From contig CAKKNE010000005.1 in assembly GCA_918797485.1 (NCBI GenBank), forward strand, positions 3,038,001 through 3,102,000: DNA of 64,000 nt. The letters are read 5' to 3'. The stretch is from Pelagomonas calceolata (Eukaryota; Sar; Pelagophyceae; Pelagomonadales; Pelagomonadaceae). Shown piece by piece: positions 15,101-55,693 of the stretch. A model generated the notes under the pieces. That model did not search any database and was not told where the DNA came from. It worked only from the letters and a program-made list of their open reading frames with translations. How positions within the stretch are numbered: position 1 is the first letter of the stretch; each line of letters opens with the position of its first letter. The position numbers and the translations under genes are program-made.

Positions 15101-18100
15101 GGTCTCAATGTCGCGCTTCGTGAAGAACGACGCGTCTTGCTCGTACCAGGCGACCGTGTCGTCGTCGCAGGACGCCGAGAGCAGGTCCACGTCGCCGTCG
15201 TCGTCGAGGTCGACCGCGTAGACGGAGCGGGCGGCGGGCGCCGCCGCCGTGATCTGCCGCCGGCGAAAGTGGGTCCCGTTGCCGGCGAACCAGTTGTGCT
15301 TGTACCAGTAGACGGCGCCCGGAGTAGACGACGCCGCGACGACGTCGACGTCGCCGTCCGCGTCGACGTCGACGGCGTAGACCGCGTCGAATTCGGCGTC
15401 GTCGTCGAGGTCCGCGTCGAGCTCGTGATCATGAAAAGTGTCATCATGTTCGAAATCGAGCTCGAACCAGTCCAGCACGTAGTTGCTGCTGGAGCCGCTG
15501 TTGTGCCCCGCCACGAGCGCGTCCATGTCGCCGTCCGCGTCGAGGTCCGCGGCGAAGACGCAACGCGGCTTGTTATTGGTGTAGTCAGGCTGGACCTCCC
15601 GTGCCGTGAATGCCACCTCCTGGCACCGCTCCGTCGGCCGCGGCGTCGGCGCCGGCACGGGGTTGAAGGATGCTCTTGTCGGCGGCGAGGTGACGCAGTC
15701 GCTCCCGTACCAGGCGACGCCATTATCATTCCAAAAGGCCGCTACGACGTCGATGGCGCCGTCGTTGTCGAGGTCGGCCGCGGTGACGTCCATGGGTTTG
15801 CCCCGCTCGAAGCCGCTCGCGGCGCGGCCCCCTCCGCACTCGCAGCACAGAGAACCCGCCGTGAAGTACGCGTTGTCGTAGGACCCGCAATATACGGAGT
15901 TACTGGGTACGAGGTACCACGAACAGCTGTTCCCTTGGTCGTCTTTTGTTTTTGGTTCCTTGTCCTCGCACGTGGTCATGTCCCTCGCGACAATGAGGTG
16001 CTGCGCGAAGTCCACGCGCGGCGTGTAGCCGACCCGACCGAGGTTCTCGTACCACGCGACCGTGTTGTCTTTCCTCGAGGTTGCCAGCACGTCCACGTCG
16101 CCGTCGCCGTCCAGGTCCCGGGCTTCGACGGAAAAGGCGCCATCCGCCGACGCCGTGACGACGTGCGCCTCGAAGGTCACCTCCGAGGTAGTCTCCCGGC
16201 CCCAATTGTGTTCTTCTCGGTTCTCGTACCACGAGACCGTGTCCGCTTGATAGGACGCGTCCAGGACGTCCACGTCGCCATCGCCGTCGAGGTCGAGCGC
16301 GAGGACGTCTTGCCGGCCATCGTCCGTCTTCCATAGAATCACTCTAGTCTCGAAGGCCGGGGTCGCGGCGCCGTCGTTTCTGTACCACGCGATGTCGAAT
16401 TCTCTTGCGTCGGCCTCGCCGCCCGACAGGACATCCATGTGGGCGTCGCCGTCGACGTCCGCAGCGTAGACGGCGATGGCATTAACATCATCGCGCGAGC
16501 CCTCGCCGTTGTGCACCTCCTGCCTATCAAAGGAATTGCCAGTGTTCCGGTACCAATACTGCCTGCAATCGCCCCGTTCGGCCGAGAGGATGTCGACCGC
16601 GCCGTCGCCGTCGACGTCGGTCGCGTAGACGGCGGCGGCGCTTTTTTTGTCCTGGCCCGGGACGACTTCATGTCTGCTAAATGTCTCGTCCCCGTCGTTC
16701 TCGTACCAGTAAATTTTATGTCCGAGGAAGTCCGCCGCGAGGACATCGATGTCGCCGTCGGCGTCCAAATCGGTCGCGTAGGCGGCGCGCGTGGTGCCCG
16801 AGCTTCCAGGCGCCCAGGAGGTCTCCCCGAGCGACGCGTCGATGAGCGAATCCACAAAGCCCGGAGTCGTCGCGCCGTTGTTCTTGTACCACTTGACCCC
16901 GTCTACTGTGGCGTCCGTTTCGTCCCGTGCTGCCACGAGCAGGTCCATGTGGCCGTCCTTGTTGATGTCGACGACCTGCGTGCAAATCAACCGGTGCCGC
17001 GCCGTCGAGCAGATGGGCGTGGAAGGCGCCGCGCGACTTTGATTTTCGCACCGTCGACCACGTGGACGTTCACGTAGTCCCCCGATGCCACGACGTGCTC
17101 CGTCGAGAAGGCCACGCCGGCGGAGCACCTGACGGAGGGCCGCGGCGTCGGCGCCGGCGTCGGGATCGGGGCGGGTATGGGCGTCGGCGGCACCGTCGGC
17201 ACCGAGGACGGGAGCGTCGTCGGGACGCCCGTCGGCAGGGCCGTGGGCGGCACCGTCGGGCGCCCCGTGGGCTCCGACGTCGGCGCGCCCGTCGGCACGG
17301 CCGTGGGCGGCACCGTCGGCACCGGGGACGGGGGCGTCGTCGGCGCGCTCGTCGGTAGGGACGAGGGCGGCACCGTCGGCACCGAGGACGGGAGCGTCGT
17401 CGGGACGCCCGTCGGCAGGGCCGTGGGCGGCACCGTCGGGCGCCCGGTGGGCTCCGGAATCGGCACGGCCGACGGATATGATGTAGGGATCCCGGTCGGC
17501 ACCGACGTCGGGACGTCGGCCGTGGGCGCGGGCGTCGGCTCCGCCGCGCAGTCGTTTTGGTAGTAGTCGAGCCAGGTGTTCTCGTAGGAAATGATAACCG
17601 CGTCGACGTCGCCGTCGTCGTCGACGTCGGCGATGTCGACGTAGTACTCGGGCGAGGAGGAGGTCCCCAAATCACCGAGCTGGTGTTTCTCGAAGGTGCG
17701 CTGGCCCGTAGCAAGGTTCTCCAGCCAGACGAGCTTCTGCTTCCTACCGCCCGCGGCCAGACTCGCGCCGGCGAAGAGCACGTCTTTGTCGCCGTCGCCG
17801 TTGAAGTCGGCGGCCCGCACCGAGCAGGCCCCCTTCGCGTTGTTATTCGTGATGTCGCCATCGTTATTGTATTCCGACTGGGTGAGTAAGACCTCTTCGC
17901 TCGTGCCGTCGGGCGGGGGCTTGTACCAGAATTCGTGGCCGTCGTTCTCGTACAGCGCCACGAAACCGTCCGTGTTCGAGGCCGCGAGCAGCTCCAGGTG
18001 GTCGTCGCCGTAACCTAACTTGGTCGCATACACGTACCTGAGATCGGTCAGCGTCGTCGTGACCGTCCTCTCCTCGAAGTCCTGGGACCCGTCGTTCTGG

Positions 18101-19259: not shown

Positions 19260-20999
19260 ATGGTCTTCAAGTTCGAGTCGCGCGCCGAGGCGACGGCGCT
19301 GCTCAGGCGCCGCTCTCGGGACGCGGCAGTTGCATTGCTGAATAAAGAGTTTACTGCGCAGCGCTGGACGCTGCGCAAAGAGCTCAAGCTGTCGGTGCGG
19401 CCGCTGGTAACCCTGCGCTACTTCCGCAGGGCCGTGGGAGCGGTGCGCGCGCCGGCGCCCGGCGCGCGCGAGCTGTGCGCGGGCGGCGCGGTCCTGGTCG
19501 TCGCGTACGCGGTCGCGCTCGTGGCGCGCGGCGCCGTCGGCGCGCGAGCGGCCGGGCACGCGGCGCGCGCGTTGGCCGCGGCGAGCTACTGTTTGTGGTG
19601 GTTCCTCTGCGGCGTGCTCTCCTGTGTGGAAATCAAAATTTTACGGCGCGTTCTGCTGAATCGTCGCGTCCTGCTGAATCGTCGCGTCGTCCTCCACGCC
19701 ATCGACGCGACGCCTGCTCGACGGCGTGGCGGTGTGAATTCCTCACCGCTCGATCGAGCCAGGACGGCCGCGTCATCGCCGAGAAATGACTTAGTGAAGA
19801 ATTGTCGGGTGCACCCGACACACTGGTTGATTTCCACACAGGTCCTCTCCACCGCGGGCCTGGGCACGGGCATGCAGACGGGCGCGCTGTTCCTGTTCCC
19901 CCACTGCGCGCGCCTCGCCACGGACTGGCGCAACCTCGGGCCTGCGTCAGCGACGACGCGCGCCCTCGCGGACCGTTGGCTCGCGAAGGGGGCGCCGGCC
20001 AAGGACGCGGGACGCCCCGCGGGCGGCGACGCGGGCCCGGGCGCGAGCGAGGCGCCGGCGGCCCGCGCGGCGCCCGCTTCCTCGTTCCTGGGGGGCTTGA
20101 GGCGCGGCGCCGGCGGCGTTTCCCTGGGCGCCGCGCGCGGCGGCGAGGCCGACGCCGCGCGCGCCGCCGCCTCGTTCCGCGCGCGGTCGCGCGACGGCCG
20201 CGCGGCGCTGGCCCTGCGAGCGGCGGTGCCCGGGTTCTTCTCCGGTGCGGGCTCGGCGGTGGGCGAGCTCGTCCCCTTCTTCCTCGCCCGCGCCGCGAGG
20301 CGCGCCGGCGCCGACCCCTTCGCCGTGATCGAGGAGGAAGAGGCGGCGGCGGACGACGGGGCGCCGGCGCGGCGGCCGCGGCTCCCGCTGCTGGCCGCGC
20401 GGACGCGCGCACGCCTGTGTGGAAATCAAATTTACGGCGCGTTCGTTCGCGTCGACCTCCACGCCATCGACGCGACGCCACCTCGATGGCGTGGCGATGT
20501 CGGTTCCTCACCGCTCGACGGAGCCAGCGCGGCCGCGTCATCGCCGAGAAATGACTTAGTGAAGAATTATCGGGTGCACCCGACACTGGTTGATTTCCAC
20601 ACAGGTGATCGCCTCGAGGCGGCGCTCGCGGACGGCGCGTTCTGGAAGATCTTCGTCCTCGCGGCCCTGCCGAACCCGTTCTTTGATTTGTGCGGCCTCG
20701 TGTGCGGCTCGCTCGACGTGTCGCTCGGGACTTATTTCGGCGCATGTTTCGCCGCCAAGGCGCTCGTCCGGACGCCGCTCCAGACGTGCGCCGTCGCGCT
20801 CGCCGTGCACCGCGTCGGCGGCGCGCCGGCGCCGCCGCGGGCCCTCGCCCGCGTCGCGCGCGGCGCCTTCCTGGCGCTGTCGTCGCTCCTGTTCGCGTGC
20901 TTCCTCGTGAGCGCGCTCGAGCAGATGGCGCAGCAGCGCGCCATAGCCGAGCTCCGGGCGGACTACGACAGCATCCTCCTCGCTGGCGAGGACGCGTAG
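19260..20999 (+). CDS. VMP1: VMP1-like ER membrane scramblase (autophagy)
   Basis: VMP1 is a multi-pass ER protein with a VTT/DedA-type core that scrambles lipids and supports autophagosome formation. Exons 19260-19613, 19842-20406 and 20605-20999 give about 437 residues. Family motifs are STAGLGTGMQTGALFLFPH, PGFFSGAGSAVGELVPFFLA and LPNPFFDLCGLVCG followed by TYFGACFAAKAL. Both introns are introner elements. Splicing at the duplicated GT of the first one gives WWFLCGVLSTAGLGTG, the same spacing as animal VMP1; splicing at the inner GT would add four residues. The frame is also open through both introns, so a simple ORF call would wrongly include them. An upstream in-frame TTG at 19209 is less likely as start. 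Confidence 0.9.
   Translation: MVFKFESRAEATALLRRRSRDAAVALLNKEFTAQRWTLRKELKLSVRPLVTLRYFRRAVGAVRAPAPGARELCAGGAVLVVAYAVALVARGAVGARAAGHAARALAAASYCLWWFLCGVLSCVEIKILRRVLLNRRVLLNRRVVLHAIDATPARRRGGVNSSPLDRARTAASSPRNDLVKNCRVHPTHWLISTQVLSTAGLGTGMQTGALFLFPHCARLATDWRNLGPASATTRALADRWLAKGAPAKDAGRPAGGDAGPGASEAPAARAAPASSFLGGLRRGAGGVSLGAARGGEADAARAAASFRARSRDGRAALALRAAVPGFFSGAGSAVGELVPFFLARAARRAGADPFAVIEEEEAAADDGAPARRPRLPLLAARTRARLCGNQIYGAFVRVDLHAIDATPPRWRGDVGSSPLDGASAAASSPRNDLVKNYRVHPTLVDFHTGDRLEAALADGAFWKIFVLAALPNPFFDLCGLVCGSLDVSLGTYFGACFAAKALVRTPLQTCAVALAVHRVGGAPAPPRALARVARGAFLALSSLLFACFLVSALEQMAQQRAIAELRADYDSILLAGEDA
19622..19841 (+). mobile_element. Introner element 1 in VMP1
   Basis: A 220-nt element with ends CTGTGTGGAAATCAA and TTGATTTCCACACAG (perfect 15-nt inverted repeat), flanked by GTGCTCTC (19614-19621) and GTCCTCTC (19842-19849), 7 of 8 matching. 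Intron 19614-19841 is 228 nt with no in-frame stop. Inside are a CGCCATCGA/TCGACGGCG hairpin (about 19700-19732) and the palindrome TGTCGGGTGCACCCGACA (19804-19821). Confidence 0.92.
20415..20604 (+). mobile_element. Introner element 2 in VMP1
   Basis: A 190-nt element with the same perfect 15-nt ends and clearly the same inner sequence as element 1, in the same orientation. Flanks are GCGCACGC (20407-20414) and GTGATCGC (20605-20612), 5 of 8 matching. Phase requires the donor at 20407 (a GC donor, intron 198 nt) or at the inner GT at 20419 (186 nt). Both keep frame and neither intron has an in-frame stop. Confidence 0.9.
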
Positions 21000-54028: not shown

Positions 54029-55693
54029 TCACATCATATTCGGCCGTCTTCCTCCCCGGCGCCGCCTCCGGCGAGGTTGCTGCTCGTCTTCCGCGAGGAC
54101 GAGCTCCTTGACGCGCCCGGCTAGGAAGTCCTGCATCAGCGCCTTCTGCGCGGCGAACTCGTCCCTTCCGGCGGGCGGAGGACACGCCCTTTCGCACGCC
54201 GCCCGCGACGCGAACCGGTTCGCGGTGCCGCCACACCCACCATAAATAAACTCCTCGCACCGGTGCGTCACGGCGTTGTGGAACCAGCTCGGCATGTGTG
54301 CCTTGCACATACCCGTGGCCGCGTGCAAGGAACACACATCCTCCGCACCGTCCGCCACGCCGTCGACGCGACGGTCGCGGCGTGCCGGCGACGCCGTTGC
54401 GCCGTCGACGCGACCCCTGCACAGCGCGTACGCCGCCTCCGCCGTTTCAGGCAACTCCGACGCCACGTCGCCGCTCCCGCCCACATGATTCCCGATGAAG
54501 CTCTTGGCGTAGGGCGTCACGAAGAGTTTGACAGGTCGTTCGAGGCCGCCCCACGCTAGAGCTTGCTCGGAAAAGCTCGAGCCGGCCGTCCCGACAAACG
54601 TATGCGCAGAAGCCAGCAGCAGGAGGTCCACGAGCGGGCCGAGCGCACCGCCGTGGCCGAAGCTCACGCCCTTGTCTCGCTCCGTCTCCAGCTGCTTCGC
54701 CGGCCGTGTAAGACCGCTGTGGTGCAGGTGGTCTTGTGGCGGCGATCCGACCGACGCGAAGTGCATCTTCGCATGTCGCGCTGCGGCCTCGACAACGGTT
54801 GTATCGTCGGCCGTGACGAGTATTGAGCTCGTCTCGCCCAGCCCGCGCGCGCACGCCACAAAAATATCCGAGACGCGCGCCCAACATGCTAAATCCGTGC
54901 AGTGCCGAGCGCGCTTGTGCCGTTGGAGGTACTGCGCCTCGTACTCAATGTTCGTCCGCAGGTGGATCGCCTGTGCACAAACCAACCAGTGAGTCGGGTG
55001 CCCGTGAAAGCTTTTGATTCATGCACCGTGGCTCGCGCTCGCGATACTAAACACCGGACGGTCGAACGCCCGCCGCCTCGCGTCCGCCAGGGCCACCCTC
55101 AGCTGGCCCGACGGCGCGAAGAGCGCCCTTAGCCCGCACGACGCGACGTCCGCGTCGTTGCCAAGGCCCGCCTCGTTCACGACGTCTCGCAGCTTCGGGT
55201 TCTCGCGCCAGCGCACGGACGGGTCGTGGTTCCAGCCGCTTACCACAAGAGCGACGCTCGCGTCGTCGAGCACGTTCCGCAGGTTCATGCCGCGGGCATT
55301 GTTCGCGAGGGGGCGGCGCTTTCCAGGCGTTCGCTCCAGCAGGTCGAGGCGATCCCACCGTATCAACGCCGGCTTTAAGAAAGCGAGCTCGGCTTGACTC
55401 TCTCCATAATCAAGGAGCAATGAACGCTTCGTCAGCGCGGCGAGCGTCAGGCCCGCCCGCACGGAGCGCAGCCGGTTGCCGAGGCCCGCGCGGCCGTGCG
55501 GCTTGACGACGACGAAGCGCGGCGCCACCGCTCCGTCGTGCATGGCGTGCTGCGTCGCGTTTAGCTTTCGAAGCCATGGCTGCGTCGCGCAACTCGTGCT
55601 GCGGAGGCCGCCGCCGAGCCAGCGGAGGTCGTCCCACTGCTCGCGCAGGGCGCTGGCGGCCAGCGTTGTTAGGGCTGCGAGCAGCGGTCGCAT
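54029..55693 (-). CDS. Fucosyltransferase-like protein fused to a Kunitz domain
   Basis: Exons 55693-55037 and 54970-54029, in phase 0, give about 532 residues. A signal peptide starts it (MRPLLAALTTLAASA). GRAGLGNRLRSVRAGLTLAA resembles the nucleotide-sugar loop of GT10/GT11/GT23-like fucosyltransferases; AIHLRTNIEYEAQYLQ and FGHGGALGPLVDLLLLASAH, VGTAGSSFSEQAL are the matching second half. Between about 427 and 481 lies a full six-Cys Kunitz/BPTI pattern (CSLHAATGMC, CEEFIYGGCGG, FASRAACERAC). A glycosyltransferase with a C-terminal protease-inhibitor module is unusual. The intron is an introner element and uses a GC donor. Confidence 0.75.
54971..55028 (-). mobile_element. Introner element forming the fucosyltransferase intron
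   Basis: Intron 54971-55036 (66 nt). Left end CGGTGCATGAATCAA and right end TTGGTTTGTGCACAG match the 15-nt introner ends, and GGGCACCCGACTCACTGG matches the inner right part of the VMP1 copies. The 8-bp duplication is GCGAGCCA (55036-55029) versus GCGATCCA after the intron, so the donor is GC. Splicing gives SIAS joined to AIHLRTN, the normal family sequence. Confidence 0.85.

Follow-up and report, generated by a model that had tools for sequence, protein, structure and literature searches.

Burst-like intron gain has long called for an explanation, and among those on offer introners are a leading one. In Aureococcus anophagefferens, Huff, Zilberman and Roy in 2016 reportedly described introners that carry one splice site, take the other from the duplicated target and lie in both orientations. 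The account of the Aureococcus-type mechanism used here comes in part from passages of a review (PMC10228655). The main-text sections considered of a further paper give 548 introner families, some with this split of splice sites (PMC9860276). For Pelagomonas calceolata, main-text passages of Guerin et al. (2022) state that introners were suspected and show an intron length peak near 210 bp (PMC9481584). Here we describe two element copies in a VMP1-like gene of this alga which, judged from the sequence, are very probably non-autonomous DNA-transposon introners, with the acceptor supplied by an inverted end and the donor by the duplicated target.

Two element copies in the VMP1-like gene

The gene lies in the window, the whole 64-kb stretch of DNA that was analysed (C5:3038001-3102000), and encodes a VTT-domain (VMP1-like) protein. 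It is broken twice by the same element, in copies of 220 and 190 bp. The features are as follows, in window coordinates.

19260-19613, 19842-20406 and 20605-20999, plus strand: exons of the VTT-domain (VMP1-like) gene, 437 aa when spliced, relatives aligned end to end
19614..19621, plus strand: 5' target-site copy of element 1, GTGCTCTC, predicted source of the donor GT
19622..19841, plus strand: putative introner element 1, 220 bp, from sequence reading and copy table
19622..19636, plus strand: left terminal inverted repeat of element 1, from the 15-nt end search
19827..19841, minus strand: right terminal inverted repeat of element 1, bearing the acceptor CAG, from the 15-nt end search
19842..19849, plus strand: 3' target-site copy of element 1, GTCCTCTC, exonic
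19614..19841, plus strand: predicted intron 1 (5' target copy plus element 1), 228 nt, GT-AG
20407..20414, plus strand: 5' target-site copy of element 2, GCGCACGC, predicted source of the donor GC, fitting the Ala codon of close relatives
20415..20604, plus strand: putative introner element 2, 190 bp, from sequence reading and copy table
20415..20429, plus strand: left terminal inverted repeat of element 2, from the 15-nt end search
20590..20604, minus strand: right terminal inverted repeat of element 2, bearing the acceptor CAG, from the 15-nt end search
20605..20612, plus strand: 3' target-site copy of element 2, GTGATCGC, exonic, giving Asp against the Ala of close relatives
20407..20604, plus strand: predicted intron 2 (5' target copy plus element 2), 198 nt, GC-AG, from splicing and relatives

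A sequence-only reading of this DNA had claimed perfect 15-nt inverted ends for both copies and flanking 8-bp duplications matching at 7/8 and 5/8, and the sequence confirms this: the ends are perfect at all four places, and the 8-mers GTGCTCTC and GTCCTCTC agree at seven positions and GCGCACGC and GTGATCGC at five. Allowing at most three mismatches, the 15-nt end has six matches in the 64-kb window, compared with 0.42 expected, and none of 100 shuffles reached six. The exonic target copy at 20605-20612 has three changes within five bases, which may be the result of faulty gap filling during insertion. By eye, element 1 contains an 18-bp internal tandem duplication.

A family of elements across the genome

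The search covered 32,445,274 bases in 8 contigs; main-text passages of the genome paper give 32.4 Mb and six chromosomes, contigs 7 and 8 being those of the chloroplast and the mitochondrion (PMC9481584). The 15-mer end (introner ends are CTGTGTGGAAATCAA) has 790 matches on one strand and 772 on the other, a total of 1,562 perfect ends, compared with none for a reversed-pattern control, and 179 copies of 185-215 bp have both ends perfect. The family is estimated at roughly 1,100 copies, based on 84 ends in the first 1.75 Mb of C1 that represent 61 elements (both ends perfect in 23, one in 32, and 6 unpaired) and extrapolate to about 1,130 elements. Combined with the gene count of 16,667 and the figure of 0.45 introns per gene given in the passages considered (PMC9481584), this yields a rough estimate that introners are about 15% of P. 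calceolata introns.

We examined 114 perfect ends, drawn from 100 places on C1, from the window and from nearby sequence. Paired copies account for 104 of them, and 10 have no partner by the pairing rule. Of the 72 paired copies, C1 holds 68, C5 three and C4 one; they were chosen for a perfect 15-nt end, and the rules given below rest mostly on chromosome C1. Tabulating the flanking 8-mers of end-search hits, as the earlier reading had proposed, gave matches of 8/8 in 34 copies, 7/8 in 22, 6/8 in four and lower in 12, so that an 8-bp target-site duplication matching at 6/8 or better is present in 60 of 72. Many similar copies with terminal inverted repeats form predicted introns in unrelated genes, and the inverted ends, target duplications and many intron-forming copies bear out the DNA-transposon type of introner to which the two elements had been assigned.

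The consensus of the 33 copies of at least 165 bp is 203 bp long, with two inverted repeats (12 and 11 bp) in its interior and a 16-bp palindrome close to one end. These long copies have a median identity to the consensus of 95%, in partial support of the recent activity that had been suggested. Element 2 is closer to the consensus (97.4%) than element 1 (94.1%), and a younger age for element 2 would fit. Two further copies lie in the window.

16976..17053, minus strand: third family copy, 78 bp, in a neighbouring gene, flanks TCGACGAC/TCGACCAC (7/8), predicted intron 17061-16976
54971-55028: decayed 58-bp copy, flanks TGGATCGC/TGGCTCGC (7/8)

By eye, excision of the 78-bp copy from the minus-strand neighbour joins a VVDINKDGHMDLL stretch, which we take to be FG-GAP-like, and this joining extends the gene past its listed ORF end. 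Elsewhere in the genome, C1:5117624-5117822 and C2:276052-276243 have the family ends with a different interior (ATTCGG-like on the left, AGTGAG-like on the right) and are perhaps a second subfamily. Two introners in one gene at C1:602991-603522 stand 143 bp apart, roughly the length of a nucleosome; spacings in further close pairs are 70, 573, 589 and 618 bp.

Donor rule, coding direction and reading frame

All 60 copies with flanks matching at 6/8 or better have a target 8-mer with GT or GC as its first two bases or AC or GC as its last two, compared with 32.6% of nearby 8-mers. Read on the coding strand, the upstream 8-mer starts with GT in 45 copies and GC in 15 (60/60); element 2 of the VMP1-like gene, with its 5/8 flanks, is outside this set. 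Splicing from the far end would also be possible in 16/60, and the other 44 are one-directional. For these the splice-capable direction is the coding direction in 39/39 copies above the score threshold and 44/44 when no threshold is applied, coding direction being scored by a codon model for which 27 long window ORFs, with 16,694 codons, served as training set. Ten of the 12 poor-flank copies are also one-directional; nine agree with the coding direction and one, C1:317333, runs against it, with negative coding scores on both strands. The orientation of the element relative to its gene is random (22 against 19 among 41 classable copies).

In 39 copies the frame is clear to either side of the element; excising the element together with one 8-mer preserves it in every case, compared with 8/39 for retention, and all 31 copies whose length is not a multiple of three break the frame when retained. 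With thresholds removed, excision is frame-compatible in 57/60 by row count; the 21 weak-frame copies comprise 18 that fit excision and three that do not (C1:293788, 723384 and 1736972). On this test, a partial stand-in for RNA, the predicted proteins are encoded as though the elements were excised exactly there. The earlier proposal, in which the intron joins one target copy to the element, the element end supplying the acceptor and the target copy the donor, would thus hold across the sample (60/60 donors, 39/39 frames). Among 17 loci fetched from end-variant searches, one of which is in the first set, 16 have a GT/GC donor in the coding sense, and locus L145, with neither, is the sole exception.

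Predicted spliced products were also submitted to a domain search. The spliced XRN_N exonuclease (C1:616890) matches over 1-200 with its GC junction at residue 195, and five of nine aligned relatives cover this junction well (P0038, P0039, P0041, P0043 and P0044), all continuous with the product. A zf-CW protein (C1:350766) matches over 487-533 with a GC junction inside the domain at 497, and a PDEase_I protein over 94-345 with a GT junction at 332; a fourth spliced protein (221 aa) had no family match in this search. The donor rule, the frame kept on excision and the random orientation together point to transposon-made introns.

A GT or GC start in every one of 60 copies might also arise from an insertion preference, either of the transposase or linked to transcription, in place of selection for splicing. 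The targets are mildly enriched in C at position 8 (27/60) and in purine at position 7 (41/60), which hints at a weak palindromic target taste. We nevertheless consider such a preference an unlikely source of the rule. GT/GC is found in 60/60 copies at the donor end compared with 16/60 at the far end, and because the two ends are identical a symmetric transposase would be blind to the coding strand, so that the one-sided rule speaks against preference. The element ends argue in the same direction. The acceptor-side end reads CAG in 72/72 copies, and as copies were chosen by their ends it is the contrast between sides that counts: the donor and acceptor sides have 23 changes each, none of them in the last three acceptor-side bases. 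The A of the acceptor-side CAG is position 2 of the inverted end, and this position is changed in 7/60 copies on the donor side and 0/60 on the acceptor side. Genome-wide, among copies of 185-215 bp, position 2 is changed in seven, all on the donor side (7/7), and position 4 in 15, of which the 10 fetched comprise eight donor-side and two acceptor-side changes. Selection for splicing is the reading we prefer for the donor rule.

The seven donor-side changes at position 2 had also prompted the idea, for which folds were examined, that selection unpairs the acceptor from a hairpin formed by the two ends. It was not upheld, as position 2, free to change on the donor side only, has seven changes compared with 15 at position 4, which is free on both sides.

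The host gene and its relatives

Searches with the 437-aa product found 37 relatives, 24 of which were aligned with it. P0001-P0016 are 434-438 aa long and 96-98% identical to the spliced product over its whole length. The alignment included 11 of these 16 close full-length proteins, P0001-P0010 and P0016, each of which is continuous across both sites with no insert; they may come from spliced RNA or from empty-site DNA. P0021 and P0022 come from contigs of 364 and 317 kb, and so from genomic DNA; both lack the two elements, and part of each is frame-shifted. P0019 (JGI, contig of 1,345 bases) and P0020 (ENA, contig of 1,282 bases) start within element 1, with LISTQ and VHPTHWLISTQ, respectively, preceding VLSTAG, and are insert-free at site 2. 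From these two metagenome proteins, as opposed to DNA, alleles carrying element 1 and lacking element 2 seem to exist.

At site 2 the spliced reference has Asp, compared with Ala in the 17 close relatives that reach the site (P0001-P0010, P0016 and P0019-P0024); the residue varies among the more distant P0018 and P0025-P0029. The Ala codon fits the intronic upstream 8-mer GCGCACGC and not the exonic GTGATCGC. By eye, the frame-shifted P0021 likewise fits the upstream target copy at site 1.

The shared gene, the shared orientation and the strong internal similarity noted at the outset, here 93.2% identity over aligned bases, could suggest an origin of the pair within the gene, through local duplication or gene conversion. 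Such an origin is very unlikely. The identity of the pair ranks 128th of the 528 pairs among the 33 long copies (median 91.5%), so that their similarity is ordinary within the family and the gene conversion put forward by the sequence-only reading is not supported; in addition, each element has flanking 8-mers of its own, and P0019 and P0020 carry the first element and not the second. Separate insertions of a dispersed element remain our reading of the pair.

Introns 1 and 2 are both multiples of three (228 and 198 nt) with no in-frame stop, and the unspliced gene is one open frame of 579 codons, so the frame of this gene is by itself no proof of splicing and the elements could be thought in-frame coding insertions retained in the protein. 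That they are such insertions is extremely improbable, because retention would disrupt the conserved CGVLSTAGLGTG stretch that removal of intron 1 restores in the alignment with relatives, both inserts are absent from 11/11 aligned close relatives, and the VTT profile matches the spliced product over positions 24-112 of 123 (32.1 bits, cut-off 33.9) compared with positions 61-112 (24.1 bits) for the unspliced product. The 31 copies elsewhere whose retention breaks the frame speak against it as well.

Spread of the copies as RNA by reverse splicing, for which the many introns of similar sequence could be cited as in fungal introners, is hardly conceivable given the inverted ends and 8-bp target duplications, both of which fungal introners lack in the passages considered (PMC9860276), and the nearly equal orientations, where reverse splicing should yield one.

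Excision as an intron is thus the preferred reading, and for element 2 two pairs of junctions had been offered. The pair 20406/20605, with the GC donor, matches the length of the close relatives and was retained; the pair 20418/20605 was not, as by hand-worked comparison it would add 12 nt encoding four residues found in no aligned relative. The NCBI model of the gene (P0017) has other donors at both introns and maps to 19433/19842 and 20490/20605. It is missing 60 residues that are present in the 11 aligned close relatives and has 28 extra, mostly from element 2. P0017 disagrees with these relatives, yet it could rest on other evidence; it appears to be a gene model that missed the GC donor, with the gene mis-spliced at both introners. 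GC donors, a quarter of those in the sampled introners, may for the same reason be missed in other genes too.

Search for a mobiliser and carriers

No autonomous partner combining introner ends with a transposase was found in the genome, in a six-frame family search too insensitive to establish absence. It returned one hAT dimerisation match, on C4, and one DUF659 match below its cut-off, on C5. KDZ and P-element families had no genome match and none in the control genomes either; MULE and IS1595 had no genome match, with matches in three controls and one control, respectively. The two hits lie in the following transposons.

C4:4499549-4503199: complete-looking hAT transposon, 3,651 bp, ends CAGGGCAGCAGAAG (14/14), exact 8-bp duplication TTGCTCGC
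C5:1220521-1223389: second, hAT-like transposon, 2,869 bp, ends CTAGGTTGCCATTA (13/14), exact 8-bp duplication ACACTCGG

In the first, a transposase ORF matches the hAT dimerisation domain slightly above the cut-off; the second has an 832-aa ORF with DUF659 and hAT dimerisation matches below the curated cut-offs. Searches with both proteins returned the proteins themselves and one short relic, from a relative of the C5 transposon, at C3:5199540. The ends of both transposons differ from the introner ends: they start CAGGGCAGCAGAAG and CTAGGTTGCCATTA, compared with CTGTG for the introners. The introner family shares the 8-bp target duplication of hAT DNA transposons. It does not have hAT-type terminal bases; the usual hAT terminal bases differ from CTGTG. 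As to the mobiliser, a duplication of 8 bp points to hAT or a different family with duplications of that length, and no further.

Two of the 10 unpaired ends, C1:795352 and C1:999105, have by eye a degraded partner with matching flank 8-mers. Five others showed no far partner making a long element in the stretches read (four of 2.9-8.8 kb, one of them less 421 bases). For the remaining C1:287642, 1530649 and 1762115, about 330 bases were read, and the loci were also scanned by the pairing rule. Among possible carriers, 43 viral stretches contain the 15-mer, each with one match; by the filter applied, none of these has a partner end together with a flanking duplication. A longer end pattern gave no match in prokaryote genomes. 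Mirusvirus introns, in the passages considered, have no match to a eukaryotic introner database (PMC12768974).

Proposed mechanism and significance

In the mechanism we propose, a short non-autonomous DNA transposon would be inserted by a transposase acting in trans, with duplication of 8 bp of target; its structure is visible in the copies, and the transposase is presumed. Both ends are one inverted repeat, ending ...TTGATTTCCACACAG, so that in either orientation a CAG stands at the downstream boundary as the probable acceptor. The first bases of the upstream target copy, GT or GC, would serve as donor. The spliceosome would then excise one target copy plus the element and leave the mRNA unchanged save for later mutations, as the frames and relatives suggest. 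Insertions at targets without a GT/GC start on the coding strand would not be removable and would be lost by selection, as the one-sided rule implies.

We lean slightly towards the view that intron gain is still under way in wild Pelagomonas and that individual introns, VMP1 element 2 for instance, exist in ocean populations as segregating presence and absence alleles. If so, the fate of newborn introns, including many with GC donors, could be traced in a widespread picoalga. P. calceolata has a chromosome-scale genome and ocean metagenome coverage, and with roughly a thousand target-marked introns and a clean donor rule, selection on new introns would become measurable in natural populations.

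Comparison with known systems

The introners suspected by Guerin et al. are very likely the elements described here: their intron peak lies near 210 bp, and the 203-bp element plus the 8-bp target copy gives 211. Of the points considered here, the main-text passages of that paper contain the length peak, with no account of ends, target duplications, donor rule or segregation (PMC9481584), and Pelagomonas is unmentioned in the main text of PMC9860276. The mechanism is the known Aureococcus one; for the anatomy in Pelagomonas and the sign of segregation at element 2, we found no description in the literature examined.

The Aureococcus anophagefferens introners are likewise short DNA transposons of about 200 bp in a pelagophyte host; they bring one splice site with them, obtain the second from the target duplication and occur in both orientations. 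Host and sequence differ from those of the Pelagomonas family; the likeness drawn here is one of mechanism. Introners of Symbiodinium microadriaticum, as described in the sections considered, also have inverted ends and target duplications, with the acceptor in the element and the donor from the duplication; their duplication is 4 bp, compared with 8 bp in Pelagomonas (PMC9860276).
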